Shown in pieces: positions 19,555-40,107 of a DNA stretch of 64,000 bases (position 1 is its first letter; every line of letters starts with the position of its first letter). The DNA is taken from the NCBI RefSeq assembly GCF_036173125.1, contig NZ_CP108054.1, positions 5,394,001 to 5,458,000 of the forward strand, read 5' to 3'. The notes under the pieces are model-generated. The model searched no databases, had not been told where the DNA came from, and was given only the letters and a program-made list of their open reading frames with translations. The position numbers were made by a program, and so were the translations under genes. Source of the stretch: Streptomyces sp. NBC_00286. GTDB taxonomy: Bacteria; Actinomycetota; Actinomycetes; Streptomycetales; Streptomycetaceae.

Positions 19555-21789
19555 ATGTCCATTTCCAGTACTGATCACGTCGTCGTGCCCGAGAACGAGG
19601 CCGTCGAAGTGCCCGAGTCTGCCGAGGCCGTCGAGGCCCAGGCCGCTGAGGCTCAGGCCGTCGAGGCCGAGGCTCCCACGACCCCCGAGGTCACCTTCGG
19701 CACCCTGGGGCTGCCCGAGGGCATCGTGCGCAAGCTCGCGCAGAACGGCGTGACCAACCCCTTCCCGATCCAGGCCGCGACCATCCCGGACGCCCTGGCC
19801 GGCAAGGACATCCTCGGCCGCGGTCGCACCGGCTCCGGCAAGACCCTCTCCTTCGGTCTGCCGCTGCTGGCGCAGCTGTCCGGCGGTCACACCGACAAGA
19901 AGAAGCCCCGCGGCGTCATCCTCACCCCGACCCGTGAGCTCGCGATGCAGGTCGCGGATGCCCTCCAGCCGTACGGCGACGTGCTCGGCCTGAAGATGAA
20001 GGTCGTCTGCGGCGGTACGTCGATGGGCAACCAGATCTACGCCCTCGAGCGCGGCGTCGACATCCTCGTCGCCACCCCCGGCCGGCTGCGCGACATCATC
20101 AACCGCGGCGCCTGCTCCCTGGAGAACGTCCAGGTCGCCGTGATCGACGAGGCCGACCAGATGTCCGACCTGGGCTTCCTGCCCGAGGTCACCGAACTTC
20201 TCGACCAGGTTCCGCCCGGCGGTCAGCGCATGCTGTTCTCGGCCACGATGGAGAACGAGATCTCCACGCTGGTCAAGCGCTACCTGAGCAACCCGGTCAC
20301 GCACGAGGTCGACGCCGCCCAGGGCGCGGTGACGACCATGTCGCACCACATCCTCATCGTGAAGCCCAAGGACAAGGCGCCGGTCACCGCCGCGATCGCC
20401 TCCCGCAAGGGCCGCACGATCATCTTCGTACGTACGCAGCTGGGCGCCGACCGTATCGCCGAGCAGCTTCGTGACGCGGGCGTGAAGGCCGACGCGCTGC
20501 ACGGCGGTATGACGCAGGGCGCGCGGACGCGGACGCTGGCCGACTTCAAGGACGGTTACGTCAACGCGCTCGTCGCCACCGACGTCGCCGCCCGTGGCAT
20601 CCACGTCGACGGCATCGACCTGGTCCTGAACGTCGACCCGGCCGGTGACCACAAGGACTACCTGCACCGTTCCGGCCGTACGGCCCGCGCGGGCCGCTCC
20701 GGCACGGTCGTATCGCTGTCCCTGCCGCACCAGCGGCGGCAGATCTTCCGTCAGATGGAGGACGCGGGCGTCGACGCCTCGCGCCACATCATCCAGGGCG
20801 GTGCCGCCTTCGACCCGGAGGTCGCGGAGATCACCGGTGCCCGGTCGATGACCGAGGTGCAGGCCGAGTCGGCGGGCAACGCCGCGCAGCAGGCCGAGCG
20901 TGAGGTCGCCCAGCTCACCAAGCAGCTGGAGCGCGCACAGCGTCGTGCCACCGAGTTGCGCGAGGAGGCCGACCGGCTGCTCGCCCGTGCCGCGCGCGAG
21001 CGGGGCGACGACCCGGAGGCCGCGCTCGCCGAGGCCGCCGCCGTCGTGGAGGCTGCCGCGGCCGAGGCCGCGCTTGCCGCCGCCTCGGTGCCGGAGCAGG
21101 CGCCCGCGCCGGCGTACGAGCAGCCGCGGCAGCGTCGGGATGAGCGGGGCAGCTACGAGCGCCGGGATCGTCGTGACGACCGTCCGTCCGGTGGCTTCCG
21201 CCGGGACGACCGTCGTGACGACCGGCGTGATGGTGACCGTGGTGGGTTCCGTCGGGACGAGCGTCGTGATGGCGACCGTGGTGGTTTCCGTCGGGACGAC
21301 CGTCCGTCGGGTGGCTCCGGTGGCTTCCGTCGTGATGACCGGCGTGACGGTGACCGGGGTGGCCGTTCCTTCGACCGTCGTGACGGTGAGCGTGGCGGGT
21401 TCCGTCGCGATGACCGCCGTGACGACCGGCGTGACGGTGACCGTGGTGGGTTCCGCCGTGATGAGCGTCGTGATGGCGACCGTGGTGGTTTCCGTCGGGA
21501 CGACCGTCCGTCGGGTGGCTCCGGTGGTTTCCGCCGCGACGACCGGCGTGACGGCGACCGTCCCACCGGTGGTTTCCGCCGGGACGACCGTCCCTCCGGG
21601 CACCGGGGCAGCGACCGCCCGTTCAACCGCGACCGTCAGGGCGACCGTCCCTCGGGCGGCTTCCGCTCCGGCGGCCACGACCGCCCGTACGGCCGTCGTG
21701 ACGACCACCGTGGCGCGGGCTCCGGCTCCGGTACTGGTTCATCGTTCGGCCGCCGCGACGACAAGCCGCGCTGGAAGCGCAACGGCTGA
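19555..21789 (+). CDS. DEAD-box RNA helicase with long RGG-like tail
   Basis: 744 residues; ATG 19555 with GGAAGG upstream. An N-terminal Glu/Ala extension precedes the helicase core. Visible motifs: Q motif (FPIQAATIP), GRTGSGKT, PTRELA, TPGR, VIDEADQM, SAT, and C-terminal HRSGRTARAG. Residues ~430-520 are Ala/Glu/Arg helical. The last ~220 residues repeat FRRDDRRDGDRGG-like units, which bind RNA non-specifically in cold-shock helicases of the DeaD/CsdA kind. Probably remodels structured RNA or ribosome intermediates, especially in the cold. The tail DNA (21160-21660) is highly repetitive and prone to length change. Confidence 0.92.
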   Translation: MSISSTDHVVVPENEAVEVPESAEAVEAQAAEAQAVEAEAPTTPEVTFGTLGLPEGIVRKLAQNGVTNPFPIQAATIPDALAGKDILGRGRTGSGKTLSFGLPLLAQLSGGHTDKKKPRGVILTPTRELAMQVADALQPYGDVLGLKMKVVCGGTSMGNQIYALERGVDILVATPGRLRDIINRGACSLENVQVAVIDEADQMSDLGFLPEVTELLDQVPPGGQRMLFSATMENEISTLVKRYLSNPVTHEVDAAQGAVTTMSHHILIVKPKDKAPVTAAIASRKGRTIIFVRTQLGADRIAEQLRDAGVKADALHGGMTQGARTRTLADFKDGYVNALVATDVAARGIHVDGIDLVLNVDPAGDHKDYLHRSGRTARAGRSGTVVSLSLPHQRRQIFRQMEDAGVDASRHIIQGGAAFDPEVAEITGARSMTEVQAESAGNAAQQAEREVAQLTKQLERAQRRATELREEADRLLARAARERGDDPEAALAEAAAVVEAAAAEAALAAASVPEQAPAPAYEQPRQRRDERGSYERRDRRDDRPSGGFRRDDRRDDRRDGDRGGFRRDERRDGDRGGFRRDDRPSGGSGGFRRDDRRDGDRGGRSFDRRDGERGGFRRDDRRDDRRDGDRGGFRRDERRDGDRGGFRRDDRPSGGSGGFRRDDRRDGDRPTGGFRRDDRPSGHRGSDRPFNRDRQGDRPSGGFRSGGHDRPYGRRDDHRGAGSGSGTGSSFGRRDDKPRWKRNG

Positions 21790-21800
21790 CACACGCTAGC

Positions 21801-21840
21801 CCGCGGGGCCCCGACGACTTCGGTCGTCGGGGCCCCGCGG
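21801..21840 (+). terminator. 18-bp perfect stem-loop after the helicase gene
   Basis: CCGCGGGGCCCCGACGAC (21801-21818), TTCG loop, perfect complement 21823-21840; begins 11 bases after the helicase stop. Confidence 0.9.
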
Positions 21841-21864
21841 CGTTCGCGGCGCGGTATCGCGCCC

Positions 21865-21921
21865 GAGGGGGCCGCAGGCCCTCAAGGGGCGCGGGGCTGT
21901 GACACTTGCGGCTCCGCCGCG
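21865..21921. repeat. Streptomyces dispersed intergenic repeat, copy A
   Basis: GGGGCCGCAGGCCC followed by GGGGCGCGGGGCTGTG and GCGGCTCCGCCGCG. Related copies are at 58981-59070 and, inverted or partial, at 57006-57060, 57077-57132 and 57509-57553. Confidence 0.7.
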
Positions 21922-21939
21922 ACGGGGGTCCCCCCGCTC

Positions 21940-22756
21940 AGACCGGGTACGACGCCTCCGCGCACGTGACGGAGGAGACGCACGACGCCTCCACGGCGGG
22001 CCCCAAGGGCATCGTGCAGTCGATCTGGACCTCGTGGATAGCGGGCTTCGTACTCCTGCTGGGCTTCACCTTCGCCATCCAGTCGTACGACGGTGCCCTC
22101 GGGTCCGCCACGGGTGTGCCGCCCGCGCAGATCCTCCTCGACGCGCTCGGCGCGACCGCGGGCAAGCTGCTCCTGCTGGTGATCATCGGGGCCCAGCTGT
22201 TCTGCGGCATGGCGTCCGTGACCGCCAACTCCCGCATGATCTACGCCTTTTCGCGCGACGGGGCGTTGCCCTACTCACACATCTGGCACACGGTCAGCCC
22301 GCGCACCCGTACGCCTGTCGCGGCCGTGTGGCTGGCGGCGGGGGAGCGCTGCTGCTCGGACTGCCGTACCTGATCAACGTGACCGCGTACGCGGCGGTGA
22401 CCTCGATCGCCGTGATCGGCCTCTACATCGCGTACGTCATCCCGACCCTGCTCCGGCTCCGCAAGGGCGACGGCTTCGAACGCGGACCGTGGCACCTGGG
22501 CCGTTGGTCGGGCCCGATCGGCGTAATCGCGGTGTCCTGGGTCATCTTCATCACGATCCTGTTCATGCTGCCCCAGGTCTCCCCGGTCACCTGGGAAACC
22601 TTCAACTACGCCCCCATCGCCGTCCTCGTAGTCCTCGGCTTCGCCGCCGCCTGGTGGTACGCCCCGGCCCGCCACTGGTTCCTCAACCCCGACCACGAAC
22701 GCACCCGCGCCCGAGAAGCGGCCCGCGCGAACGCCCCGGAACCGGTAGATCCCTGA
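21940..22756 (+). pseudogene. Amino acid permease (APC family) remnant, truncated and frameshifted
   Basis: The C-terminal half of an APC-type permease is readable in two frames. Frame one (to about 22345) gives IVQSIWTSWIAGFVLLLGF, GVPPAQILLDALG, FCGMASVTANSRMIYAFSRD and TRTPVAAVWLAA. Frame two (from about 22342) gives GALLLGLPYLINVTAYAAV, TSIAVIGLYIAYVIPT, a GPIGVIAVSWVIF segment and a charged tail ending at 22756. The frame changes inside the GCGGCGGGGGAGCGC run. The first ~270 residues of a normal permease are absent, and a dispersed intergenic repeat sits where they would begin. Non-functional as a transporter. Confidence 0.85.
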
Positions 22757-22845
22757 CGCTTCCACCCACCCACCGTGGCCGAGACCCCGATACCCGATCG
22801 GAGACCCGGCCACGTCCGGCTATGCTCGGGGGAGCAACATCGCCA

Positions 22846-22918
22846 GGGCCCTTAGCTCAATTGGCAGAGCAGTGGACTTTTAATCCATTGGTTGTGGGTT
22901 CGAGTCCCACAGGGCCTA
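22846..22918 (+). tRNA. tRNA-Lys (TTT)
   Basis: Acceptor GGGCCCT with AGGGCCT, anticodon loop CTTTTAA, T-loop GGTTCGAGTCC. 73 bases, no encoded CCA. Confidence 0.95.
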
Positions 22919-22925
22919 CGGAATC

Positions 22926-22958
22926 GCCCCCAGCTCAGTGGCACTTCGAGCTGGGGGC
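22926..22958 (+). terminator. Stem-loop after tRNA-Lys
   Basis: GCCCCCAGCTC (22926-22936) pairs with GAGCTGGGGGC (22948-22958); 11-base loop. Confidence 0.8.
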
Positions 22959-22986
22959 TAGTGCGTTCGGGCCGGTCCCGTGATCG

Positions 22987-23601
22987 TCAGCCGGCTCTTG
23001 CGGGGCGCTGGGTGGCGGTGTCGATGCCGTGTGCGAAGAGTGCCGCCTCGACCCGGTTGGTCACCTCGCACTTCGCGTAGACCGCCCGGATGTGGTCCTT
23101 CACCGTGCCCACGTGCAGGGCCAGCCGGCGCGCTATCTGGTCGTTGCTCAGCCCGTCGCTCAGCAGTGTCAGCACGTCCTGTTCGCGCGGGGTGAGCTGG
23201 GCGAGCCGCGTCACCTGGCTCGATCGCGTCGCCCACACCCGCAACCCGCCTGCCAGCAGCCGCACCGCGTGCACGAAGTCCCGGTCTGCCAGTGAAGGCG
23301 GCAGGACGCCGTTCAGGTATGTGGCACGGGACCGCTCGGTGTCGAACCCGCCGTAAGCCGCGAGCGCCAAGGGCTTGGGGCGGCCGAGAGCCGCGGTGGA
23401 AATCGCCTCGAGTCCCGAGGCCAAGCCGATCCGGCCGATCAGCACGAGGTCCGCTTCGGCTTCGGCGATCACCGCGGGTGCGTCCGCGCTGCCCAGGACG
23501 GCGCGAACTTCCGTCTCCGCCGCGTTCGTGAGCAGTGACTCCAGCTCGGCGCGCGCCCGCTCGTCGTCATCGATGATCACAACGCCAATGACGTCGTTCA
23601 C
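22987..23601 (-). CDS. LuxR/NarL-type regulator with degenerate receiver
   Basis: 204 residues. Residues ~1-120 fold like a receiver (VVIIDDDERARAELESLL retains the acidic pocket). The strand that should carry the phosphorylated Asp reads ADLVLIGRIGLASG, so it has no Asp, and the conserved Lys is not evident. Residues ~135-195 are a clear LuxR helix-turn-helix: LTPREQDVLTLLSDGLSNDQIARRL and VGTVKDHIRAVYAK. The protein probably works without phosphorylation. It is divergent from the putative circular-bacteriocin operon across a 345-base spacer and is the obvious candidate regulator of that operon. Confidence 0.85.
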   Translation of the reverse strand: MNDVIGVVIIDDDERARAELESLLTNAAETEVRAVLGSADAPAVIAEAEADLVLIGRIGLASGLEAISTAALGRPKPLALAAYGGFDTERSRATYLNGVLPPSLADRDFVHAVRLLAGGLRVWATRSSQVTRLAQLTPREQDVLTLLSDGLSNDQIARRLALHVGTVKDHIRAVYAKCEVTNRVEAALFAHGIDTATQRPARAG

Positions 23602-23946
23602 GTCTTTCCCCCCCCAAAGACCGCCCCCGGCGAGTGAGTAGCACCGTCATGCGCGCTGGTCAGGCGCAGGGGTGAGCGGTGCTCCGAGGCGCTTTGCAAG
23701 TCTTCATTCGGCCATCTGGGATGTCAACCGCTGTTTCTCCTGGGGCTCGAGTTGTCTTCCGCTTCGTTCGGCGGGTCAACCGGAGGGGGCCGAAGAGCGG
23801 GGTACGCAGGGGCCTTGGCCCCTGGCACGGTGGCACACGGCTCGGACGAGATTCCGCCAGTCATGCCCCCGCCCCGCGGGAATCGGGGCGGGGACTGCCC
23901 CATGGCGGTATGGGGACGCCGAGCTTACGTCTTATGGAGGAACGTC
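23602..23946. promoter_or_regulatory. Divergent promoter region of LuxR gene and bacteriocin operon
   Basis: 345 bases with no convincing gene. It must hold the promoters for the LuxR-like gene (-) and the precursor operon (+). A GCCCCCGCCCCGCGGGAATCG-like G/C dyad lies near 23866-23895, before the ribosome-binding site TATGGAGG at 23933-23940. I cannot assign -10/-35 elements with confidence. Confidence 0.4.
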
Positions 23947-24225
23947 ATGAAGAAGTCCTACGGCCGTGCCGCCGTCGCCGGTGTCGGCGTCGCCGTCGCC
24001 GGCAGCGCGCTGCTGATGCTGGGCGTCGTGGCGCCCGCGGTTCTGGTCGGCTACTTCGGCTTCAACGCCGCCAACGCCGCCGCTGCCTACACCGCGATCA
24101 TGGCCGGCATGAGCATCGCCGCCGCGCTGTCCGTCTTCGGTGGCGTCACCGCGGCCGGCGGCTGGGCCCTGTTCCTGCTGCGTCAGGCCATCGCCACCGC
24201 AGGCAAGAAGGCAGTCGTCAGGTAA
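23947..24225 (+). CDS. Putative circular bacteriocin precursor (AS-48-like)
   Basis: 92 residues; GGAGG lies six bases before the ATG. The N-terminus (MKKSYGRAAVAGVGVAVAGSA to LMLGVVAPA, about 31 residues) looks like a basic plus hydrophobic leader, as in AS-48. From about residue 33 the sequence VGYFGFNAANAAAAYTAIMA, then SIAAALSVFGGVTAAGGWAL and the basic helix RQAIATAGKKAVVR follows the plan of AS-48 (FGIPAAVAGTVLNV; LTAVGSGGLSLL; KKGKRAVIAW): five short amphipathic or hydrophobic helices, Gly/Ala-rich turns, cationic end. The predicted mature peptide is 60-61 residues, within the family range (58-70). Unusual is Arg at the C-terminus, where family members have Trp, Tyr or Leu. Downstream SpoIIM/DUF95 and ABC genes match the maturation and immunity sets of such clusters. 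Confidence 0.7.
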   Translation: MKKSYGRAAVAGVGVAVAGSALLMLGVVAPAVLVGYFGFNAANAAAAYTAIMAGMSIAAALSVFGGVTAAGGWALFLLRQAIATAGKKAVVR

Positions 24226-24230
24226 CACCT

Positions 24231-24281
24231 CGGGATCGGCCGGGTGCCGGGCCTACGTTGCCCGGCACCCGGCCGATCCCG
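24231..24281 (+). terminator. 22-bp intercistronic hairpin after the precursor gene
   Basis: Arms 24231-24252 and 24260-24281 are perfectly complementary (core CGGGATCGGCCGGGTGCC), with a 7-base loop. It starts six bases after the precursor stop and ends 50 bases before the DUF95 gene. It probably acts as a partial terminator or RNA stabiliser so that precursor transcript exceeds transcript for the machinery, a layout common in peptide clusters. Confidence 0.85.
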
Positions 24282-24331
24282 GCGCGACCGCACACCAACC
24301 GACGGCGACAACGACAGGAAGCGGAACGGGA

Positions 24332-24892
24332 ATGCCTGCCTTCAGCAGCGGAGCGGTCGGCTGGACGGTCGGCCTCGTACGCAGACAGCGCCTCGCGCTG
24401 CTGTCCGGCGCGCTCCTGTGGTTCGGCGCCATGGCCGCCGGTGCGGCGATCGGCGTCGGTGAGGGCTCCGGAGTGGAGACGAACCCGGCTCAGCCCGGCC
24501 TGGCCACCTGGTGGCACATCTTCAGCGCCAACGCCTCCGTGGCGCTTCTCGCGTTCGGCGGCGTGCTCACGCTGGGCATCTTCACCCTGCTGTTCACCCT
24601 GGTCTCCGGCACCCTGACCGGGCTGGGACTCGGCAAGGCGTACGCCGTGGCCGGTCCGTCCGTGATGGCCGCGCACGTACTGCCGCACGCCGTCGTCGAA
24701 CTCCCCGCCATCGCCGTCGCGGTGGGCGCGGGCATCGCCCCGCTGCCGGCGCTGATCCGGCACCTCACCGGAGACCGGGTGCAACGTCCCCACGTCCGGG
24801 ACGTGCTGACCGACTCCACCGGGCTGCTGTGCATCTGTCTGGCCCTGCTTCTCGTAGCCGCAACCATAGAAACGTGGGTGAGCACCCTGTGA
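24332..24892 (+). CDS. SpoIIM/DUF95-family membrane protein
   Basis: 186 residues; AGGAAGCGGAAC upstream of ATG 24332. About five membrane segments. SpoIIM/DUF95 features: NASVALLAFGGVLTLGIFTL and the hallmark AAHVLPHAVVELPAIAVA (HxxPHxxxEL). DUF95 proteins are the most constant partner of circular bacteriocin precursors, where they are thought to take part in maturation, secretion or immunity in the membrane. The stop overlaps the next start (GTGA), showing translational coupling. Confidence 0.85.
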   Translation: MPAFSSGAVGWTVGLVRRQRLALLSGALLWFGAMAAGAAIGVGEGSGVETNPAQPGLATWWHIFSANASVALLAFGGVLTLGIFTLLFTLVSGTLTGLGLGKAYAVAGPSVMAAHVLPHAVVELPAIAVAVGAGIAPLPALIRHLTGDRVQRPHVRDVLTDSTGLLCICLALLLVAATIETWVSTL

Positions 24893-25425
24893 ACGCCACC
24901 GCACCCCGCCGGATGCAGGTGCTGTCGCTGCTGGCCGTCGCACCGGTGCTGGCGCTGCTGATGTTCCGGCTGCGCGACGTGTTCCGCGACGAGGTCGCCG
25001 CGACGCTGCCGGACGCGAGCGAGCAGGAAGTCAGCCTGGGTACGTGGGCCGCGGTCGCCGTGGGGTCTGTACTCAACGTTCTCGTGTACACAGCCGGGGT
25101 CCTGCTCATCGCGGCAGCCACGGCAGGGCTGTGCCGGTGGCTGGGATGCGAGGTGGAGTTCCGGCGGCTGCGGCATCTCGTCGGCGGAGTGTTCGCGCTG
25201 TATCTGCTGGTGCGTACCGTCGTGTTGGTCGCCCTGACCTTCACTGAGGTACCGAGTGCGAGCCTGATGGACTGGTTGACCCGCCCCGATCCGGGCCTGC
25301 TGCTCCTCGCTCTTGCCACCGGATGGGCGCTGCGCAAGGTGGCTCCCGAATTCGGCGTACTGCGGGTCGCGGGGTGTGCGGTCGCGCCTCCGCTGCTGCT
25401 GGCGCTGGCCCAGATCGTGCTCTAG
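24889..25425 (+). CDS. Small polytopic membrane protein of the bacteriocin operon
   Basis: 178 residues from GTG 24889, which overlaps the DUF95 stop by four bases. Four to five hydrophobic segments (LSLLAVAPVLALLMF, AVGSVLNVLVYTAGVLLIAA, HLVGGVFALYLLVRTVVLVAL, LLLLALATGWAL, AGCAVAPPLLLALA). I do not recognise a named family. Position and topology fit the hydrophobic maturation or immunity proteins of circular bacteriocin clusters (As-48B-like role). That is inference from context only. Confidence 0.6.
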   Translation: MNATAPRRMQVLSLLAVAPVLALLMFRLRDVFRDEVAATLPDASEQEVSLGTWAAVAVGSVLNVLVYTAGVLLIAAATAGLCRWLGCEVEFRRLRHLVGGVFALYLLVRTVVLVALTFTEVPSASLMDWLTRPDPGLLLLALATGWALRKVAPEFGVLRVAGCAVAPPLLLALAQIVL

Positions 25426-25460
25426 GCGAGCTCCAGGCGTCCTTGAGGAGACCTGTGCCC

Positions 25461-25964
25461 ATGACCGAACAAGAGCCCATGACCGAACAAGACGAGACAC
25501 AGGCAGAGAAGCCGGACGGGCAGCGGCCGGGGAAGCAGCCAGGAAAGCAGGGAGGCACCCTGGTGTGGAGTCGGCGCGTGCTGCCGGCCGCCGCCGCGTT
25601 CACGACCCTCGTCGGGTGGACGCGGGCAGCCGTCTACGCGTCCAGCCGTGACGACGTCGTCGCCGCCGTCCACACGTCGTCGCAGGTGACCGAGTCCGCG
25701 CGGGCGACCGTCGTACAGATCCAGGACGCCCTGCAGTACGCGTGGATCGGCTTCCCGCTCGTACTGGTCCTGCTCGCGTTCATCGCCGCCGTTCTCAAGA
25801 CGGGACAGGCTCTGCTGATCGCGATCAGCGGCTGCGTCGGTTCGTTCCTCGCCATGGCCGGACTGCTGTTCCCGTCCACGGGGATCCTGATCGCCCTCGC
25901 CGGAGCGTTCCTCGTCGGGATCATCGCGACCGTCTGCGCCGCGTTGCTGCCCGGAAGGACCTGA
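25461..25964 (+). CDS. Small membrane protein with hydrophilic head
   Basis: 167 residues from ATG 25461, 10 bases after GAGGAG; GTG 25455 is possible. The first 35 residues are charged, with a duplicated start (MTEQEPMTEQDE) and Lys/Gly/Gln repeats. Then come a hydrophobic segment (~37-55), an outside loop rich in Ser/Asp/Thr, and three more membrane segments. No family recognised. Sits 35 bases after the previous gene in the same operon; candidate immunity or accessory protein. Confidence 0.6.
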   Translation: MTEQEPMTEQDETQAEKPDGQRPGKQPGKQGGTLVWSRRVLPAAAAFTTLVGWTRAAVYASSRDDVVAAVHTSSQVTESARATVVQIQDALQYAWIGFPLVLVLLAFIAAVLKTGQALLIAISGCVGSFLAMAGLLFPSTGILIALAGAFLVGIIATVCAALLPGRT

Positions 25965-25972
25965 ACTCCCAG

Positions 25973-27595
25973 ATGGCAGCGCCCTTTCTGCGGGGATCGT
26001 TCCACTTGGCTCTGACCGACCGGCGGCGTTCCCTGAACCTGCTGCAGGGGCGGCCCACGCCTCGCTGGGCGCTCGTGGCGGTCGCCTGCTGTTATGCCCT
26101 CGGCGCGCTGGTCGGCCTGGCGGCGGCCGCCGGAGCCGGCGCTCTGGCCGGGCACTTCCAGCCCGCGCGCGAGGTGGACGTCGAGCGCGTCACGGCGTAC
26201 GGATGGGTGCCCGTGACCGCCGCCCTCCTGGCGCTGGCGGCGTCGGTGCGGCTCGGTCAGGTCCGGCAGGTGATGTTCCCGAGCGACTTCCATGTGCTGC
26301 GCACTGTGCCGGTGAGCGCCGGGCAGTTGCTGTTCGTACGGCTCGTCGGGCCCGCCCTGCTGTCCCTGGCCGGCGTGGGCGTGGCCGGGACCGTGTTCCT
26401 GACGTGCTGGCTGGAGGGGCCGCCAGCGGAACTCGCGGTCGCCCTGGTGTGGGGCACCGTAGCCCTGGGCGGAGCGGCGCAACTGGCCGTCGCCGCCGGG
26501 TATCTGCTGATCCCGGTGCGGGCGGCGCAGCTCCGTACGTTCGTACTCGTCGGGGTCGCGGGGGTCGTGCTCGGGGCGGCCACCGTTCCGCTCGCCCGGC
26601 TGCTGCCCGCGGGCGGCAAGGAGGACACGGCGACCGCACTCTCCCGGCTCGGCGTGGACGCCCTCACCGGGCTGCGCCCCGCCTGGTGGAACGCCCTGCT
26701 CGAGGGCGGTGCCGTCGCGGTCCTCGCGGCGATGTGGCTGCCCGCCGCCGCCCTCGGCGCGCTCGCCGCCTTCGGGTTCGTACGGGCCGGGCGCGGGCGG
26801 GTGCTGCGTGAGGCGGACCCGCAGGGGATGCGGGTGCGTGGGCGCCCCGAGAGCTTCCGCGCGGGCCGCTCGCCCGCCGCACTGATCGCCGCCAAGGAGC
26901 TCCGGAGCATCCTGCGGGGCGCGCACACGCTCACCGGCGGGCTTCGCCGGATCGCGTTCGGGGCGGTCCTGCTGCTGGGCGTCGGGGTGGGGCATCTGCT
27001 GCTGGGCGGAGGCGGCTTGCCGGGGCTGCCGTTCACCGGCGCGGTGGGCGTGGTGGTCGGCATGGCGGCGCTGGCCTCGGACGAGGCGGTCCAGACATCG
27101 GGCCTGGAGGCGGAGCGGGGCTGCGCCGATCTGCTGCGGCAGTCCCCGCTGCCGTACGGGGCGCTGCTCGCGGGGAAGATCGTCGCGTTCGCCGGGGTGG
27201 TGGCCGTGCTGACCGCCCCGGCCGTCGCCGGATGGCTGCTGCTGTTCCGGGACCCCCTGCTGCCGCTGACCGCCGGATGGCTCGCCGCGTGCGTCGCGAG
27301 CGGCGTCGCCGCGGTGGCGACAGCGCTCGCCGTGCCGGCCCCCGAGAGCGCCGCGCAGACCCGGATCACCAGGTCGGGGACGGCGGATCTGCTCCAGCCG
27401 CTGCTGACCGCGGCGCTGATGGCACCCGCGCTGCTCACCACCTCCCTGATCGGGAAGTCCTCATCCCTGCTCGGGAAGTCTTCGCTCGCCGCCGCTGTCC
27501 CGCTCGCCGTCACGTTCGTCGTCCTCGTCGCCGCCGTCCGGTGGCTGGCAGGTCAGGACCGGCTGCCGCGGAAGTCATGGAGGAAGCACGCGTGA
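25973..27595 (+). CDS. ABC transporter permease, large
   Basis: 540 residues, about 12 hydrophobic segments. N-terminal MAAPFLRGSFHLALTDRRRSL, then repeated membrane blocks and a mid-protein cytoplasmic loop (AAKELRSILRGAHTLTGG). This layout matches two-half ABC-2-like exporter permeases. The start codon lies eight bases after the previous stop, and its stop overlaps the next gene (GTGA), so the partner ATPase is the product of 27592-28227. Probable role: export of, or immunity to, the cluster peptide. Confidence 0.8.
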   Translation: MAAPFLRGSFHLALTDRRRSLNLLQGRPTPRWALVAVACCYALGALVGLAAAAGAGALAGHFQPAREVDVERVTAYGWVPVTAALLALAASVRLGQVRQVMFPSDFHVLRTVPVSAGQLLFVRLVGPALLSLAGVGVAGTVFLTCWLEGPPAELAVALVWGTVALGGAAQLAVAAGYLLIPVRAAQLRTFVLVGVAGVVLGAATVPLARLLPAGGKEDTATALSRLGVDALTGLRPAWWNALLEGGAVAVLAAMWLPAAALGALAAFGFVRAGRGRVLREADPQGMRVRGRPESFRAGRSPAALIAAKELRSILRGAHTLTGGLRRIAFGAVLLLGVGVGHLLLGGGGLPGLPFTGAVGVVVGMAALASDEAVQTSGLEAERGCADLLRQSPLPYGALLAGKIVAFAGVVAVLTAPAVAGWLLLFRDPLLPLTAGWLAACVASGVAAVATALAVPAPESAAQTRITRSGTADLLQPLLTAALMAPALLTTSLIGKSSSLLGKSSLAAAVPLAVTFVVLVAAVRWLAGQDRLPRKSWRKHA

Positions 27596-28227
27596 TACGT
27601 ACGAAAGACCTGACCGTACGGTTCGGGGAGAAGGTCGCCGTCGACCGGGTCGGCCTGCACATCGGCGAGGGCGAGTTCGCTCTGCTGTCCGGGCCCAACG
27701 GCTCCGGCAAGTCCACCCTTCTGCGAGTCCTCGCCGGGCTCCTGGAACCGTCCTCCGGGAGCGTGGAGATCGCCGGACAGGCGCCGGATGCCGCCGCCGT
27801 GCGGGCGCTGCGCGGTTTCGTCCAGGACGATCCGCCGCTGTACGAGTACCTGACCTCCCATGAACACCTGGCGTTCGCCGCACGGCTGTGGGACGTACCC
27901 GTCGAGGACGGCCTCGCGCTGCTGGCCCGCTTCGGCGCCGGGGACTGGGCGGGCACACTCATCCGGGACCTCTCCCTGGGCACCCGCAAGAAGGTCGGCC
28001 TTGCGGCGGCGCTCACCCACCGTCCCCGACTGCTGCTCCTGGACGAGCCGTTCAACGGCCTGGACGCCGGCTCCTGCGACGAACTCGCGCTCCTGCTGAA
28101 GGAAGCCCGCGACGAGGGGCGCACCGTCCTGCTGACCGCCCATGAGCCGCAGCATGTCGAGCAGTTGGTGGACCGCCATATCACTCTGGACCGCCGTATC
28201 TCTCTGGACCGCCGGGGGCACGCATGA
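27592..28227 (+). CDS. ABC transporter ATPase 1
   Basis: 211 residues. GTG 27592 is chosen over ATG 27577 because GGAGGA lies seven bases upstream and the GTGA overlap is typical. Walker A GPNGSGKS (34-41), an FVQDDPPLYEYLT Q-loop region, signature LSLGTRKKVGLAAAL, Walker B LLLLDEPFNGLD, switch His in LTAHEP. Closest in style to CcmA-type ATPases of ABC-2 exporters. Works with the upstream 540-residue permease. Confidence 0.9.
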   Translation: MIRTKDLTVRFGEKVAVDRVGLHIGEGEFALLSGPNGSGKSTLLRVLAGLLEPSSGSVEIAGQAPDAAAVRALRGFVQDDPPLYEYLTSHEHLAFAARLWDVPVEDGLALLARFGAGDWAGTLIRDLSLGTRKKVGLAAALTHRPRLLLLDEPFNGLDAGSCDELALLLKEARDEGRTVLLTAHEPQHVEQLVDRHITLDRRISLDRRGHA

Positions 28228-29174
28228 TCGAGATCGCAGGCCTCACCAAGCACTACGGAAGCCGTACCGCGGTCTCCGATCTCACCTTCGCGGTGCGGCC
28301 GGGCCGGGTGACCGGCTTCCTGGGACCCAACGGCGCCGGCAAGTCCACCACCATGCGCATGATCCTGGGCCTGGACCGCCCGAACCGCGGCACCGCCACC
28401 GTGGCGGGCCGGCGCTGCGCCGACTTCGCCGACCCGCTGCGCGAGGTGGGCGCGCTCCTCGACGCCGGCGCGATCCACGGCGGCCGTACCGCCCGCAATC
28501 ACCTGCTCCAACTCGCGCAGAGCAACCGCATCCCCGCCGCCCGGGTCGACGAGGTCCTGGGTCTCGTCGGCCTCGCCGCCGCCGCGAACCACCGCGTCAA
28601 GGGTTTCTCGCTGGGCATGCGGCAGCGCCTGGGCATCGCCGCCGCGCTGCTGGGCGACCCACCCGTGCTGATCCTCGACGAGCCGGTCAACGGGCTCGAC
28701 CCGGAGGGCATCCACTGGATCCGGCACCTGTTGCGGGGCTTGGCGGGCGAAGGGCGTACGGTCCTGGTTTCCAGCCACCTGATGAGCGAAATGGCCCTGT
28801 CCGCCGACCACTTGGTCGTCATAGGCAAAGGGCGGCTGCTCGCCGACATGCCGATGGCCGCGTTCGTGGAACGGCACTCGCGGCAGGCGGTGCGTGTCGC
28901 GACGCCGCGCCCGGCGGACCTGGAGCCGCTTCTTAAGGGTGCGGACCTGGAGTACGAGGCGGTGGAGTCCGGCCCGGACCACGGCGTGTTCGAGGTACGC
29001 GATGCCCGGGCGGCGACGATCGGCGACCTTGCGTCGGGAGCCGGGGTGCCGCTGCACGAACTGTTCACCCGGCGGGCGTCGTTGGAGGACGCCTACCTGA
29101 CGCTGACCGCGGACTCCACCGAGTACCGCACCGGTACCGACGCCCAACGCCCCCGGGACGGAGCCCGACCATGA
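28224..29174 (+). CDS. ABC transporter ATPase 2 (drug/peptide exporter type)
   Basis: 316 residues, ATG overlapping the previous stop (ATGA). Walker A GPNGAGKST (34-42), signature FSLGMRQRLGIAAALL, Walker B VLILDEPVNGLDPEG, switch SSHLMSEM. The ~90-residue C-terminal extension is that of BcrA/DrrA-like ATPases. Pairs with the following 265-residue permease, whose start overlaps its stop. Such BcrAB-like pairs usually give self-immunity or export. Confidence 0.92.
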   Translation: MIEIAGLTKHYGSRTAVSDLTFAVRPGRVTGFLGPNGAGKSTTMRMILGLDRPNRGTATVAGRRCADFADPLREVGALLDAGAIHGGRTARNHLLQLAQSNRIPAARVDEVLGLVGLAAAANHRVKGFSLGMRQRLGIAAALLGDPPVLILDEPVNGLDPEGIHWIRHLLRGLAGEGRTVLVSSHLMSEMALSADHLVVIGKGRLLADMPMAAFVERHSRQAVRVATPRPADLEPLLKGADLEYEAVESGPDHGVFEVRDARAATIGDLASGAGVPLHELFTRRASLEDAYLTLTADSTEYRTGTDAQRPRDGARP

Positions 29175-29968
29175 CCACCACCACAACGCCCGGTCGGGGA
29201 AAGGTCACGGCGGTGCTGCTCTCCGAGCTCACCAAGCTCCGTACCGTCCGCTCGAGCGCATGGACCCTGTTCTCCGCGTGCGCGGTCACCGTCCTGCTCG
29301 CTCTCTGCTTCTCGCTGCTGTCCCGGTACGCCTCCGGGCAACTCGCCTCGGGGGAGGGCGCGGACCCCACCGGGGACCCGGTGTTCACCAGCTTCGGGGG
29401 GATGGTGCTGGGGCAGCACGCGATGGTCGTGTTCGGAGTGCTGGCGGTGTCCGGCGAGTACAGCAGCGGCTTGATCAGCACCTCGCTGCACGCCGTGCCG
29501 CGACGCGGGCTGCTGCTCGGCTGCAAAGCCGCCGTCGTGGGTGGGGCCGCGCTGCTCACCGGGTTGGTGACGTCGTTCACCTCGTACGCGGTGGGGCAGG
29601 CGGCCCTCGGCCCGTACGGCACCTCGCTCGGGGAGCCGGGCGTGCTGCGTGCCGTGTTCGGGGCAGGCCTGTACATGGCATTGCTCGCGGTGTTCGCCAT
29701 GGGCGCGGCGACCGTGCTGCGCAGCCCTCTGCTCGCACTGGGCCTGCTGATCCCGTTCTTCTTCCTGGTCTCGCCGACCCTGGGCTCGCTGCCGAAAACG
29801 CAGACGGTCGCGCAGTACTTCCCGGACTCGGCGGGCATGCGGATCGCGCAGGTCGAGCAGTCGCCGGGCGCTCTAGGGCCGTGGACCGGTCTGGGCGTCC
29901 TGGTGCTGTGGACGGCGGTCGCGGTGGCGGCGGGGGTTGTCGCGCTGCGGGGCAGGGACGCCCGCTGA
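29171..29968 (+). CDS. ABC-2 family permease
   Basis: 265 residues, ATG overlapping the previous stop. The cytoplasmic N-terminus LLSELTKLRTVRSSAWTL is the classic BcrB/ABC-2 entry motif. Six hydrophobic segments follow, with VSGEYSSGLISTSLHAVPRR between TM2 and TM3. Last gene of the bacteriocin-type operon; no clear terminator after it. Likely immunity or export partner of ATPase 2. Confidence 0.9.
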   Translation: MTTTTTPGRGKVTAVLLSELTKLRTVRSSAWTLFSACAVTVLLALCFSLLSRYASGQLASGEGADPTGDPVFTSFGGMVLGQHAMVVFGVLAVSGEYSSGLISTSLHAVPRRGLLLGCKAAVVGGAALLTGLVTSFTSYAVGQAALGPYGTSLGEPGVLRAVFGAGLYMALLAVFAMGAATVLRSPLLALGLLIPFFFLVSPTLGSLPKTQTVAQYFPDSAGMRIAQVEQSPGALGPWTGLGVLVLWTAVAVAAGVVALRGRDAR

Positions 29969-30220
29969 TCGCGTGAGCTGAGGCTGCGCGTGTGAGGAGT
30001 TCGTGGCCACGACCGCCGGCGCTCTCCACTGCCATCTGCAGGGTGGCCCTCAGGTGTCGCTCGACGGGTGGAAGTAGCCGGGGCTCAACAGCAGCCGGAG
30101 TCGAGATAGCTCCGGACCGGGCGGGCAGTGCGCCAATTCGGTTGAGCACGAAGATCAGCCCGTGTTACCACTGGCGGGTTCGCGAAGGTTGACCACAAAA
30201 CATCCGAAGGGCTGGCCGAC

Positions 30221-30748
30221 ATGGTGCTGGGGGACACGGTGAAGCTGCGGCCGATGGAGCCGTCGGACGCGGAGGCTCTGTGGCGGTGGAACCACGACCC
30301 TGACGTCATGCGCTGGATGAACGACGGCTACGCCCAGCCGCTGGCCCAGGTCCAGAAGCGGATGGAGGAGCGGCCGCGCAATGCGTACGGCGACGTCCTC
30401 TTCGGGGTCGAGGTGCTCTCCGACGCACAGCTCATCGGCCTGGTCACACTACGCGACGCCGAGCCGGAGACCGGATGCGCCGAACTCGACATCTACCTCG
30501 GCGAGAAGGAGTACTGGGGCCGCGGCTACGCCACCGACGCCATGCGGACGATCTGCCGCTACGGCTTCGAGAAGATGCGCCTGCACAAGATCACGCTGAC
30601 CGTCGTCACCGAGAACCTCGCCGCCTACCGCGTCTACCAGAAGGTCGGCTTCGTCGAGGAAGGCAGGCTGCGTCAGGTCTTCCGACGCGATGGCCAGTGG
30701 TACGACATGTTCACCATGGGCCTGCTGGAAGGGGAGCTCCGCTCCTGA
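30221..30748 (+). CDS. GNAT acetyltransferase (RimJ/RimL-like)
   Basis: 175 residues; ATG 30221 follows GAAGGG. KLRPMEPSDAEALWRWNHDPDV is the RimJ-type N-terminus. ELDIYLGEKEYWGRGYATDAM holds the acetyl-CoA binding loop (RGYA), and VVTENLAAYRVYQKVGFVEEGRLR is the conserved C-terminal part. Acts in the cytoplasm; substrate (ribosomal protein, antibiotic or other amine) not predictable. Stands alone between the bacteriocin operon and the convergent pst block. Confidence 0.88.
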   Translation: MVLGDTVKLRPMEPSDAEALWRWNHDPDVMRWMNDGYAQPLAQVQKRMEERPRNAYGDVLFGVEVLSDAQLIGLVTLRDAEPETGCAELDIYLGEKEYWGRGYATDAMRTICRYGFEKMRLHKITLTVVTENLAAYRVYQKVGFVEEGRLRQVFRRDGQWYDMFTMGLLEGELRS

Positions 30749-30859
30749 ACTCGGACGCTCGCTCCGCACGAGGACCTGGCCGCACCGCTGGCCGGACGCG
30801 GCCACGAATGCGGCGGCCCGGCCGTCGATGCGGTGCGCTGTCGGCGCTGATCTCCGGTG

Positions 30860-31654
30860 CTAGGGCGTCCGCGCCGCGCGGGTCGTCGGCGCGGACCCCG
30901 CCGGAGCGCGGCCTCCAGGACCGCATTCCAGGCGGTAGCCGATGCCGCGGATCGAGTCGATGGTGCAGCAGCTCCTCGCCTCGTCCCGCAGTTTGTTGCG
31001 TACGCGCCGCACGTGCACGGTCAGGGTGTTGCTTTCCAGGGAGTCGACGCCCCACAGGGCCTGGGTCAGCTCGCGTCGGCCGATGACCCTGTTGGGGCGC
31101 TCCATGAGATAGCGCAGCAGGAGGAACTCACGTACCGGCAACCGCAGAGAGCGTCCGCGGACGTAGACGTGAAAGCCCGGGACATCAAGCTCGATGTCAC
31201 CGATCACCAGCGTCTGATCCGAGCCGTCGGACGGATGATCGACTCTGAGCAGCGGGAGGATCTCCTCGGTGCGGTAGGGGCGGGCCACGAAGGCCACCGC
31301 TCCGGCCGACAGGGCCGCTGTTCCCTCGGTGGCGCCCTCAGGCCCGGCACCCACGATGACCGGCACCGGGTGGAGCCGGGCGATGAGCCCGGTGACCTTG
31401 GCCGCGTCCACGACCGGCAGCGGGGCGCCGAGGAGTACCGCCCTGGGGCTGTGGGTGCCTACCTGAAGCAGAGCCTCTGCGCCGTCGTGGCAGACCAAGG
31501 TCCGTACGTCCGCCGCTGAGAAACGGGCCAGAGCCGTCTTGGCGATGTCCGGATCGGGCTCGGCCAGCAGCAGGTCAGGGGCTGTGGCGTCTTCGGGGCC
31601 GCCGGGACCGCTGCCGGCCGCGGTCTCCGGTGGTCTCTGTGGCTTGGGCGTCAA
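30860..31654 (-). CDS. OmpR-type regulator with degenerate receiver, distal to pst genes
   Basis: 264 residues. The TTG at 31654 is chosen because AGAGGAG lies about nine bases upstream. Residues ~30-145 look like a receiver, but the phospho-Asp position reads RAVLLGAPLP and the conserved Lys reads VARPYR, so phosphorylation is unlikely. Residues ~160-250 are a complete winged helix (LPVREFLLLRYLMERPNRVIGR, then TLTVHVRRVRNKL and IRGIGYRLE). It follows pstB by about 110 bases on the same strand, so it may be the local regulator of phosphate uptake, similar in logic to GlnR. Confidence 0.85.
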   Translation of the reverse strand: MTPKPQRPPETAAGSGPGGPEDATAPDLLLAEPDPDIAKTALARFSAADVRTLVCHDGAEALLQVGTHSPRAVLLGAPLPVVDAAKVTGLIARLHPVPVIVGAGPEGATEGTAALSAGAVAFVARPYRTEEILPLLRVDHPSDGSDQTLVIGDIELDVPGFHVYVRGRSLRLPVREFLLLRYLMERPNRVIGRRELTQALWGVDSLESNTLTVHVRRVRNKLRDEARSCCTIDSIRGIGYRLECGPGGRAPAGSAPTTRAARTP

Positions 31655-31767: not shown

Positions 31768-32736
31768 TCAGCCGAAGCGGCCGGAGATGTAGTCCTCGGT
31801 GCGCTGTTCGGAGGGGTTGGAGAAGATCCGCTCGGTCTCGTCGTACTCGACGAGCCGGCCGTGGCGTTCGCCCTTGTCGTCGACGTGCGCGGTGAAGAAG
31901 GCGGTGCGGTGGGAAACGCGGGCGGCCTGCTGCATGTTGTGGGTGACGACGATGATCGTGAACTCCCGCGCCAAATGCTCCATCAGGTCCTCGATCTTGG
32001 CGGTGGCGATCGGGTCCAGGGCCGAGCAGGGCTCGTCCATGAGGATCACCTCGGGCGAGACCGCGATCGTACGGGCGATGCACAGCCGCTGTTGCTGGCC
32101 GCCGGACAGGGCGAGCGCGGAGGTCTTTAGTTTGTCCTTGACCTCGTCCCACAGCGCGGCACGGGTGAGGGTCTCCTCGACCAGGTCGTCGAGGTTGCCC
32201 TTGAAGCCGCCCACCCGCGGCCCGTACGCGATGTTGTCGTAGATCGACTTGGGGAACGGGTTGGGCTTCTGGAAGACCATGCCGACCCGGCGGCGGACCT
32301 CGATGGGATCGACCTCGCGGCCGTACAGATTCTCGTTGTGGTAGCGGATTTTGCCGATCACGCGAGCCGTGGGGATGAGGTCGTTCATGCGGTTGAAGCA
32401 GCGGATCACGGTGGACTTGCCGCAGCCGGAGGGGCCGATCATCGCGGTGATCTGACGGTCGCCGATGGTCATGTTGACGTCGCGTACGGCCTCGTGGTCG
32501 CCGTAGAACACCGACAGGCTGCCGACCTCGAAGACCGGTGTGGTCAGCGGCGGGGCATCGTGAAAGGAGACTTGCGGGGCCGTCGTGCCGTTGGTGGAGT
32601 CGGTGCCGTTGGTGGAGTCGGTGGAGTCGGTGGAGTCGGTGGAGTCGGAGGGGGAGGCCGCGACGGTCGTCTTCCGCGCGTGCCGGAGGGCCCGCTGACG
32701 GAGGCGCTGGACGTGACGGAAGGGGTCTGGGGTCAT
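31768..32736 (-). CDS. pstB: Phosphate ABC transporter ATPase PstB
   Basis: 322 residues against the usual ~260. The excess is an N-terminal extension with a DST repeat tract (about residues 31-48) encoded by a GGAGTCGGT microsatellite near 32590-32655. From residue ~68 it is standard Pst[21 protein letters not shown], Walker [10 protein letters not shown] (101-109), [16 protein letters not shown], signature [13 protein letters not shown], Walker [12 protein letters not shown]. Energises phosphate uptake. Last transporter gene of pstSCAB. Confidence 0.96.
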
Positions 32737-32743
32737 GACGTGG

Positions 32744-33655
32744 TCACCAGCGGCGGGAGTAGTGGTTGCGGAGCCAGATGGCCAGGGAGTTCATGACCAG
32801 CAGGATCACCATGAGGATCACGATCGCGGCGGCGGCGAGTGAGGTGAACTCGGCGCGTGACTGGCTGATCCAGTTGAAGATCTGGATCGGCAGCACGGTG
32901 AAGGCGCTGTCCGGACCGCTCGGATTGAAGGTGATGAACGTCAGTCCGCCGAGCAGCAGCAGCGGAGCCGCCTCGCCGATGGCGCGGGACAGGGCGAGGA
33001 TCGAACCGGTCGCCATGCCGGGCACCGCCGCCGGGAGCACCTGGCGCCAGATCGTCTGCCACTGCGTGGCGCCCAGCGCCAGCGACGCCTCGCGGATGGA
33101 CGGCGGTACGGCACGGATCGCCTCCCGCGCGGCGATGATCACCGTGGGCAGGACCAGCAGCGACAGGGTGAGCGAGGCCGTCAGCACCGTCTGCCCGAAG
33201 CCCAGGCCGCGGGAGATGATGCCGAGACCGAGGATCCCGTAGACGATCGACGGAACCGCCGCCAGGTTCTGGATGTTGATCTCGATCGCGCGGTTCCACC
33301 AGCGCTCGGGGTCGGCGTATTCCTCCAGGTAGATCGCGGTGAGGACGCCGACGGGCAGACAGTAAAGGGCGGTGAAGCCGATCACCCAGATCGTGCCCAT
33401 GATCGCCGACTGGGCGCCGGCCTGAGACGGGTCGATGATGTCGGGGAAGTTCGACCAGATACGGGAGTCCAGCCGGGGCCAGGCCTCCACCACGATGTAC
33501 ACGAGAAGGCAGCCGAGGAAGACCACACCGACGGAGAGCGAGACCCACAGGCTCAGCTGGAACAACCGCTCCCGCAACGGAGTTCCGCGGCCCTTGAGCC
33601 GCCGCACCTCCGGGACGCCGGCCTCCGGTCCCTTGTCGAGCACGCTGGTGCCCAT
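32744..33655 (-). CDS. pstA: Phosphate ABC transporter permease PstA
   Basis: 303 residues. ATG 33655 touches the pstC stop (TGATG); GTG 33658 is an alternative. Six membrane segments. PstA hallmarks: [35 protein letters not shown], and the EAA-like loop [21 protein letters not shown]. Membrane channel half with PstC. Confidence 0.95.
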
Positions 33656-34608
33656 CACTCGTACACCTCCCGGAACCTGCGCACCAGGCGAATGCTGACC
33701 AGGTTCATCACCAGCGTCATCACGAACAGCAGCGCGCCCACCGCGAAGATCGTCTGGTAGCCGATGGAGCCGGTCGGCAGGTCGCCGATGCCGGCCGCGG
33801 CGATGAACGCGGTCATCGTCTGCATGCCCTCAAGGGGGTCGAAGGACAGGTTGGGCCGGCCGCCGGCGGCGATCGCGACGATCATCGTCTCGCCGATCGC
33901 CCGGGAGACGCCCAGCACGATCGCGGCGACGATGCCGGACAGCGCGGCCGGGAAGACGACACGGGTGGCGACCTGCATACGGGACGATCCGAGCGCGAAT
34001 GCTCCGTCGCGCAGATCGTTCGGTACTGCGGTCATGGCGTCCTCGGAGAGCGACGCGATCGTCGGGATGATCATGATGCCCATGACGAAGCCCGCCGAGA
34101 GCGCGTTGAAGACCTCCGGGCCCTCGCCACCGGGCCAGATGTCCTGCAGCAGCGGAGTGACGGCCTGCAGTGCGAAGAAGCCGTACACCACGGTGGGGAT
34201 CCCCGCGAGGACCTCCAGGATCGGCTTGAAGAACGCGCGGACCCTGGGCCTGGCGTACTCGCTCAGGTACACCGCCGCGCCCAGCCCCAGCGGCACGGCC
34301 ACGAGCAGCGCGATCAGGGTCACCATCAGCGTGCCGGAGACGAGTGGCAGGACGCCGAAGTGCGGCGGCTTGAACAGCGGCGACCAGTCGGTACCGGTGA
34401 TGAAGTCGCCGAAGCTCACCTTGCCGAAGAAGTCGGCGGCGGGCGGGATGAGCGCGATGACGATACCGACGGTGGTCAGCACCGAGACCAGCGAGGCGGC
34501 CACCAGCAGCACCTTGATGGCCTTCTCGCCATAGCGCGGCTGGGACCGCTTCAGGAAGCCGGGACTTCCCGCAACGGCCCTGCGGCGCCGTATGCCCGCG
34601 GAGGTCAT
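33655..34608 (-). CDS. pstC: Phosphate ABC transporter permease PstC
   Basis: 317 residues; its ATG overlaps the pstS stop (ATGA). Hallmarks: VYLSEYARPRVRAFFKPI, EVLAGIPTVVYGFFAL, and the loop RDGAFALGSSRMQVATRVVFP. Six membrane segments. Partner of PstA. Confidence 0.95.
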   Translation of the reverse strand: MTSAGIRRRRAVAGSPGFLKRSQPRYGEKAIKVLLVAASLVSVLTTVGIVIALIPPAADFFGKVSFGDFITGTDWSPLFKPPHFGVLPLVSGTLMVTLIALLVAVPLGLGAAVYLSEYARPRVRAFFKPILEVLAGIPTVVYGFFALQAVTPLLQDIWPGGEGPEVFNALSAGFVMGIMIIPTIASLSEDAMTAVPNDLRDGAFALGSSRMQVATRVVFPAALSGIVAAIVLGVSRAIGETMIVAIAAGGRPNLSFDPLEGMQTMTAFIAAAGIGDLPTGSIGYQTIFAVGALLFVMTLVMNLVSIRLVRRFREVYE

Positions 34609-35591: not shown

Positions 35592-35682
35592 GTGGCATCC
35601 CATCCTCGTGTTGGCCGCACTCCCGTCTAACTATGAGATAGGCGGGCAAATTGATCTACTCGGACAATTCGACCGAAGCTCA

Positions 35683-38265: not shown

Positions 38266-38352
38266 GGCCAGGACCGTAGGCCGCCGGATTGCATGGCTGT
38301 GCGGTGATTGCGCGCAATTGCGCGAGAGGGTGTGCGACTTGCTGCGGATTGT

Positions 38353-39938: not shown

Positions 39939-40107
39939 GTCGCCCTCCGTCTGCGCTGGTTGGACGTCCAGAATGCGTGGGATGGCGCGAGCATGCCCGA
40001 CGATTGCGGCAGATTGCGCATGCTCCCAGGCTCATGCCGATTGCGCGCAAGCAGCCATACCGAAGCACCCATGCTGACGGGGCCACGTGAGACAACGCAC
40101 GGCCTCT

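Follow-up and report, generated by a model that had tools for sequence, protein, structure and literature searches.

Circular bacteriocins are very stable antimicrobials. According to surveys, in the portions of their text available here, they are made mainly by Firmicutes and their cyclisation mechanism is undetermined; Xin et al. (2020) count 6,925 precursors from Firmicutes, 2 from Actinobacteria and 1 from Thermotogae, and for the actinobacterial ones the available passages name Mycobacterium abscessus (PMC8534725). In the raffinocyclicin and cerecyclin clusters, as described in the available parts of the reports, the precursor is accompanied by a DUF95 protein, membrane proteins, an ATPase, an accessory ATP-binding cassette (ABC) transporter, a regulator and a putative immunity protein of 52-58 residues (PMC11409674, PMC8534725). 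Here we describe a cluster of nine genes at positions 22987-29968 of a 64,000-nucleotide stretch of the Streptomyces sp. NBC_00286 genome (contig NZ_CP108054.1, positions 5,394,001 to 5,458,000; hereafter the window). Comparison of its sequences makes it highly probable that the cluster provides for the production and export of a small helical bacteriocin, and for resistance to it, the peptide sharing its ancestry with circular bacteriocins of the uberolysin/carnocyclin/AS-48 type (subgroup i). Its descent and gene content lead us to file it as a variant of that class; we stop short of calling it a proven member because its precursor has a basic C-terminal end.

A preliminary description of this DNA, made from the letters alone, had called the cluster an undescribed AS-48-like circular bacteriocin locus. 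The word "undescribed" needs qualifying. Among the titles and abstract openings listed from the open literature (subscription journals and preprints lie outside this scope), none describes a Streptomyces circular bacteriocin; the word Streptomyces is absent from the main text of Xin et al. (PMC8534725), "Streptomyces" and "Actino" are both absent from the main text of Vezina et al. (PMC7132975), and the available text of a third account, which also gives mainly Firmicutes as producers, uses "Streptomyces" 0 times (PMC8659200). One relative of the window precursor, P0016, nevertheless already carries the automatic UniRef name "Circular bacteriocin, circularin A/ube...", the other names given being hypothetical or uncharacterized protein.

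Relationship of the precursor to known circular bacteriocins

A protein search with the 92-residue window precursor returned 4 proteins, its own included, and the family falls into three lineages: A (LTxYFGL start, Ala end), B (FFLK..MS, Ala end) and C (the window precursor with P0002-P0004). The three other lineage C proteins come from S. pratensis, NPDC021093 and NPDC047928, and S. natalensis and S. violascens are examples of strains in lineage A or B. The window precursor is 48-51% identical to lineage A and 29-36% to lineage B.

On this comparison the precursor is homologous to known circular bacteriocins, at the profile level and through its lineage A relatives. A nine-row family profile run against PDB sequences found carnocyclin A at E 6.3e-5, the sole match below 0.001, with weaker matches to an AS-48 variant (0.064), enterocin NKR-5-3B (0.16) and AS-48 (0.19); a C5HR2_4r chain (0.016) and a Cadherin-1 chain (0.17) that stood among them were treated as chance. 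With 16 rows the values were 1.4e-4 for carnocyclin, 0.044 for NKR-5-3B and 0.088 for AS-48, and the window precursor as a single sequence reached carnocyclin A at 0.055. When hhalign was used to compare a 14-row precursor profile with ten proteins encoded on a stretch of an AS-48 plasmid, the precursor of AS-48 came out at E 1.7e-5 (probability 78%, 61 residues), with the next protein at 0.06 and ten reversed controls at 0.1 or worse. The SpoIIM profile likewise had the AS-48 SpoIIM as its best match among the ten (E 7e-4, probability 26%), although one reversed control, that for ATPase 1, came to 0.0046, which calls for caution with values around 0.001. Profiles of the Yip1-like, 167-residue and 540-residue proteins and of permease 2 gave nothing above noise against the same stretch; for the 540-residue protein and the 556-residue AS-48B, E was 0.32, with no detectable relation.

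Ten family members were also scanned singly with PF09221 (cut-off 23.6 bits) and TIGR03651 (cut-off 30.7 bits). PF09221 scored above its cut-off in three, all of lineage A (L022 at 23.7, L010 at 25.9 and L023 at 25.3 bits, a margin of 0.1-2.3 bits), and below it in L020 (21.0 bits), L021 (15.8 bits) and the lineage B member L013 (14.7 bits). At E<=1, PF09221 matched 7 and TIGR03651 6 of the 16 alignment rows. Matches of the window precursor to the SCO2097 family ("morphological protein"; E 0.0048, residues 3-50, far below cut-off), DUF3040 (E 0.0086, residues 4-46, below cut-off) and a boron transporter (0.16, weak) were rejected, and those of family members to XopAV, SidA and SAR2788, at E 0.08 or worse and far below cut-offs, were treated as chance.

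The alignments suggest that the precursor consists of a predicted 32-residue leader and a predicted 60-residue core. Leu33, invariant in all 16 rows of the family alignment, falls on residue 1 of NKR-5-3B in the profile search against PDB, and in the hhalign alignment it pairs with Met47 in the precursor of AS-48, the first residue of MAKEFG and the start of the mature AS-48 peptide; it is this correspondence that points to the 32 + 60 division. The presence of 32 residues ahead of the aligned part, and of a SpoIIM protein, led us to set aside a leaderless (aureocin A53-like) bacteriocin. The core so predicted has a net charge of +4, a GRAVY (hydropathy) value of 1.05, a pI of 10.4 and 30% Ala, with computed average masses of 5920.90 Da for the linear 60-mer and 5902.89 Da for the cyclic one (8917.5 Da for the whole precursor).

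The core is predicted to fold as four helices (pLDDT 81.9). Foldseek against PDB at E<=10 gave only three matches, all circular bacteriocins and all with weak E-values, NKR-5-3B and carnocyclin A being nearest by fold; neither the E nor the Z values of these fold matches are significant by themselves. A five-helix bundle had been anticipated for this peptide: the Foldseek matches agree with a structural likeness to circular bacteriocins, but four helices are predicted rather than five. By prediction, the peptide has what is typical of the class, a hydrophobic core of 58-70 residues whose 4-5 helices pack as a compact, saposin-like bundle. Carnocyclin A (PDB 2kjf), whose own leader is very short, shares with the window peptide a core of 60 residues and 26-30% identity in structural alignments, besides being the best profile match; the window peptide differs in its predicted 32-residue leader, C-terminal Arg, phylum and other transporter parts. 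NKR-5-3B (PDB 2mp8), from Enterococcus, has 64 residues and 18% identity. AS-48 has 70 residues and five helices, according to the available text of Vezina et al. (PMC7132975).

Several results weigh against placing the precursor in this class. The 92-residue product, for which matches to TIGR03651 and PF09221 had been foreseen, matched neither model at E<=1, nor was it picked up when its own genome was searched with them. PF09221 was also silent on L025 and L029 and on the lineage C proteins P0002 and P0003, the last two of which TIGR03651 missed as well; TIGR03651 gave 20.2-23.8 bits in five lineage A members, all below its cut-off, and nothing in the other five scanned. In addition, the family profile does not match at E<=1 three PF09221 peptides of another actinomycetotal family (L077-L079, see below). 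The single-member scans and this last miss reduce our confidence. Finally, Vezina et al., in the text available, report hydrophobic residues at both ends of all 119 circular bacteriocins, a regularity and not a proven necessity (PMC7132975); the N-terminal Leu of the window core fits it and the C-terminal Arg does not. On balance, the carnocyclin A match at 6.3e-5, the three lineage A relatives above the PF09221 cut-off and the Foldseek matches support the AS-48-like reading, and the curated models would then miss part of the circular-bacteriocin class.

Gene content of the cluster

Inspection of open reading frames (ORFs) and Pfam and NCBIfam scans gave the following features, in window coordinates (aa, amino acids; TM, transmembrane segments):

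22987..23601, minus strand: LuxR/NarL-type regulator, divergent from the precursor; PF00196 57.7 bits, above cut-off
23602..23946, no strand: regulator-precursor intergenic region, presumed from position to hold promoter and operator
23947..24225, plus strand: precursor peptide, 92 aa; ATG at 23947, stop ends at 24225
23947..24042, plus strand: predicted 32-residue leader, from alignment to NKR-5-3B and the AS-48 precursor
24043..24222, plus strand: predicted 60-residue core, C-terminal Arg
24231..24281, plus strand: perfect 22-bp stem with 7-base loop between precursor and SpoIIM gene, without U-tract
24332..24892, plus strand: SpoIIM/DUF95 membrane protein, 186 aa; PF01944 61.6 bits against a cut-off of 26.9
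24889..25425, plus strand: Yip1-like membrane protein, 178 aa, ~4 TM by hydropathy; PF04893 E 0.0027, below cut-off
25461..25964, plus strand: small membrane protein, 167 aa, ~3 TM; candidate immunity or export partner; no family
25973..27595, plus strand: 540-aa protein, ~10 TM, permease-like partner of ATPase 1; no family
27592..28227, plus strand: ABC ATPase 1, 211 aa; PF00005 87.1 bits
28224..29174, plus strand: ABC ATPase 2, 316 aa, DrrA/lantibiotic-protection type; PF00005 91.4 bits
29171..29968, plus strand: ABC-2 permease 2, 265 aa, ~6 TM; PF12679 (ABC2_membrane_2) E 3.9e-6, 26.8 bits against a cut-off of 27.2

All genes named in the preliminary description are present at the positions given there, as are a ribosome-binding site (GGAGG six bases upstream of the precursor ATG) and the SpoIIM/DUF95 match of the 24332-24892 product. 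The cluster start it gave, 22987, is the end of the divergent regulator gene, which it did not mention. Four-base start/stop overlaps, thought to join most of the genes, occur at four of the seven junctions (SpoIIM/Yip1-like, 540-aa protein/ATPase 1, ATPase 1/ATPase 2 and ATPase 2/permease 2); the remaining three are gaps of 106, 35 and 8 bases. Third-position GC is 0.85-0.92 in all nine genes. Both ATPases score above the PF00005 cut-off. The best NCBIfam models for ATPase 2, TIGR03740 and TIGR01188, are both below their own cut-offs, and the Pfam scan found no peptidase among the cluster genes.

The SpoIIM/DUF95 protein (PF01944) and ABC ATPase (PF00005, here in two proteins) that mark subgroup i are both found. 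The AS-48 type cluster, examined in its plasmid pPD1 copy, agrees with the window in a precursor homologous in register, a SpoIIM protein, an ABC ATPase and a second ABC system; it differs in having an adaptor protein and a 56-aa gene, presumably the immunity gene, and in its unrelated 556-residue membrane protein. The claim that circular bacteriocin clusters have exactly the gene set seen here therefore went too far: the cluster shows no 50-60-residue immunity gene, the operon having no gap above 106 bases in which one could lie, no adaptor in the second transporter and no detectable relative of AS-48B. Immunity may instead lie in the 167-aa protein, the 178-aa protein or the second ABC pair. 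The other kinds of gene in the raffinocyclicin and cerecyclin clusters recur in the window; both of these are from Firmicutes, the former has a MutR-type regulator, and the latter includes a YIP1 family protein, as far as the reports were available (PMC11409674, PMC8534725). A plasmid collection gave no match for the window precursor, the window SpoIIM or carnocyclin. NKR-5-3B-like genes in 111 of its records had no SpoIIM annotated in the stretch examined and were not used for comparison.

Recurrence and lineages

Among 392 Streptomyces genomes, 7 had a precursor match, the window's own included, and the profile found the same 7, leaving 385 with none. Named genomes, when scanned, contributed 10 loci, of which three (L020, L022, L027) had already been found by the other searches. 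Around the 13 other loci (L020, L010, L022, L024, L021, L023, L012, L013 and L025-L029), neighbours were sought by tblastn at E<=1e-3. SpoIIM stood beside the precursor relative in 12 of the 13, the exception being L027, apparently frame-shifted, so that the pairing is more than chance. The 540-aa protein and both ATPases were each present in 12 as well (missing from L020, whose contig ends early), with the 167-aa protein in 7, the Yip1-like protein in 5 and permease 2 in 7. A LuxR-type match lay in the fetched stretch of 11 of 13, which is weak evidence, helix-turn-helix (HTH) proteins being common. The neighbourhood is thus kept around precursors down to 29-36% identity. In L027/L011 (Streptomyces sp. 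WAC08241; assembly completeness 55%), several cluster genes show apparent frameshifts, perhaps sequencing errors.

Permease 2 occurs in all seven lineage B loci and in none of the six lineage A loci, one of which ends early. The window ATPase 2 is 48-58% identical to its lineage B counterparts (48 being the frame-shifted L027) and 36-41% to those of lineage A, and in a FastTree tree rooted with ATPase 1 and AS-48 ATPases it groups with B (support 0.997). Since the precursor is nearer A, while ATPase 2 and the permease 2 pattern point to B, the window cluster is, on these comparisons, a mosaic or retains an older arrangement.

A profile search of proteins, in which the best 8000 candidates by shared words were scored, added the Kitasatospora protein P0018, and the family is therefore not confined to Streptomyces. 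Among 396 genomes of the phylum, the 16-row profile found only the window's own genome; scoring was limited to 13 candidates per genome, so that some members may have been missed. A rare Streptomyces family in three lineages, one of them charged-ended, would widen the class to the main antibiotic-producing genus.

The basic end and alternative explanations

The last residue is Arg or Lys in each of the four lineage C precursors, the window's included (AVVR, AVVK, AIVK and AIVK). The 15 other family proteins have Ala there, as have 13 of 13 A/B locus precursors; these two sets overlap. Two of the four lineage C cores have 57 residues, not 60. Lineage C either closes through the basic residue, trims it or does not close. 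That it is a circular-bacteriocin line with a new ring-closing end has, in our estimate, slightly less than an even chance: Leu1 would be joined to Arg/Lys, or the basic residue would be a follower of a single residue, cut off before the ring closes or as it does, giving a 59-residue ring of average mass 5746.70 Da. Either new end, if true, would be a handle on the cyclising activity, because one kind of cluster serves both the Ala-ended lineages A and B and the basic-ended lineage C, and the two ends offer a natural comparison for finding what closes the ring.

The same basic ends would fit a bacteriocin that is linear, with the circular-bacteriocin fold and the genes for export preserved but ring closure lost in lineage C; one survey suggests, in its available text, that cyclisation may depend on a hydrophobic residue at the C terminus (PMC8659200). 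The end of the last helix is nevertheless kept in lineage C (AVVR/AVVK/AIVK), and the window retains SpoIIM and the export genes; we judge this course improbable. Distinctly less probable still is that the peptide is secreted through a bacteriocin-type exporter to act in signalling or development. Small hydrophobic surface peptides are used in Streptomyces development, a divergent LuxR-type regulator adjoins the precursor gene, and the poor SCO2097 match carries a morphological name; against this, the profile relationship is to bacteriocins, and a gene with a core role in development would hardly be expected in just 7 of 392 genus genomes or within a variable region. The name of the Pfam SpoIIM family would make this a sporulation locus, which we regard as hardly credible: nearly all of the genus genomes gave no match to the precursor, and a stronger SpoIIM lies elsewhere in the genome, at 6157448 (151.4 bits, with 60.3 for the cluster copy in the same genome search). 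The preliminary description had named the lack of any profile or structural match, or a sporulation role, as what would overturn it; the results did not overturn it on these grounds.

Profile-level homology, gene order, predicted fold and hairpin are the direct support for a bacteriocin related to the circular class, and from them we infer regulation, cleavage, cyclisation, export, immunity and killing as follows. The divergent LuxR-type regulator would control the operon, and the hairpin after the precursor gene would lead to more precursor than export protein being made. The 32-residue hydrophobic leader would be removed at Val32-Leu33, and the core would fold as four helices around a hydrophobic centre and be cyclised head to tail. 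Export would fall to SpoIIM together with ATPase 1 and the 540-aa membrane protein, the second ATPase-permease pair and one small membrane protein would protect the producer, and the basic patch of the last helix would bind target membranes.

Hairpin and regulation

The 22-bp stem at 24231-24281 lies in an intergenic region with a z of -6.0. In 11 of 13 loci (the window and 12 others, L027 excluded), the interval from precursor to SpoIIM contains a perfect stem of 12-22 bp, and in each case 100 mononucleotide shuffles gave none as long. The exceptions, L013 and L026, have no perfect stem of at least 12 bp there. The stems are similar within L010/L022/L024 and within L012/L029, and their sequence differs between groups. 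Neither a U-tailed terminator nor, by a simple scan, a sigma-70-like promoter was found in 23600-24340, and Rfam at gathering threshold gave only tRNA in 21000-31000. The hairpin could act as an attenuator or as an mRNA stabiliser favouring the precursor.

The receiver domain of the regulator (PF00072) reaches E 0.007, below cut-off, and its HTH is intact. By eye, the receiver is degenerate: the acidic N-terminal triad is present, but Gly occupies residue 56, the expected position of the phospho-acceptor Asp; the regulator may work without phosphorylation.

Genomic setting and other PF09221 peptides

The regulator gene ends 67 bases after a tRNA-Lys gene. In one relative (G003), the sequence after the same tRNA-Lys resumes at window 50606 after ~3 kb, as against 27.6 kb here; the cluster thus lies in a variable region next to tRNA-Lys, judged against that one relative. 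A second relative (L068) has part of the region, window 38261-39941. The site in the relatives was located with an amino acid permease fragment, the neighbouring GNAT and pst genes having given paralogs. An integrated element was considered and set aside: a search for repeats of the tRNA-Lys 3' end (20 bases, <=3 mismatches) returned the tRNA itself alone, and no integrase or peptidase family was found by Pfam in 18 scanned ORFs of 30221-50574 (part of its ORFs) or in two upstream ones.

Besides the cluster, window 22985-50606 carries an additional pst-type transporter set together with genes for an aromatic hydroxylase, a glycosyltransferase and HTH proteins. The pst-like operon at 31768-35603 comprises pstB, two permeases and a binding protein, with an OmpR-type regulator adjoining, and another pstB-like copy lies at genome position 5512784. 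The amino acid permease gene at 21906-22756, just before tRNA-Lys, is broken, with about the first 200 model positions missing and the rest spread over two frames; the relatives have long open frames at this site.

PF09221 gave 4 matches in 396 phylum genomes, 3 of them above cut-off and all three in one other family. These peptides (L077-L079, from G477, G402 and G498) score 44.1-46.4 bits and have SpoIIM and ABC ATPase matches 2-4.5 kb away. They probably belong to conventional circular bacteriocin clusters in another branch of Actinomycetota and are at most distant cousins of the window family. In three of 295 Streptomyces genomes a peptide passed the PF09221 cut-off, two of these peptides being lineage A precursors of the window family. 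The third is a different PF09221 peptide (L030) in S. pathocidini, at G008:C538:5071-5241, in a genome that also has a lineage A cluster on another contig; in the first 2500 of 3171 bases, a LuxR-like stretch was seen upstream of it by eye.

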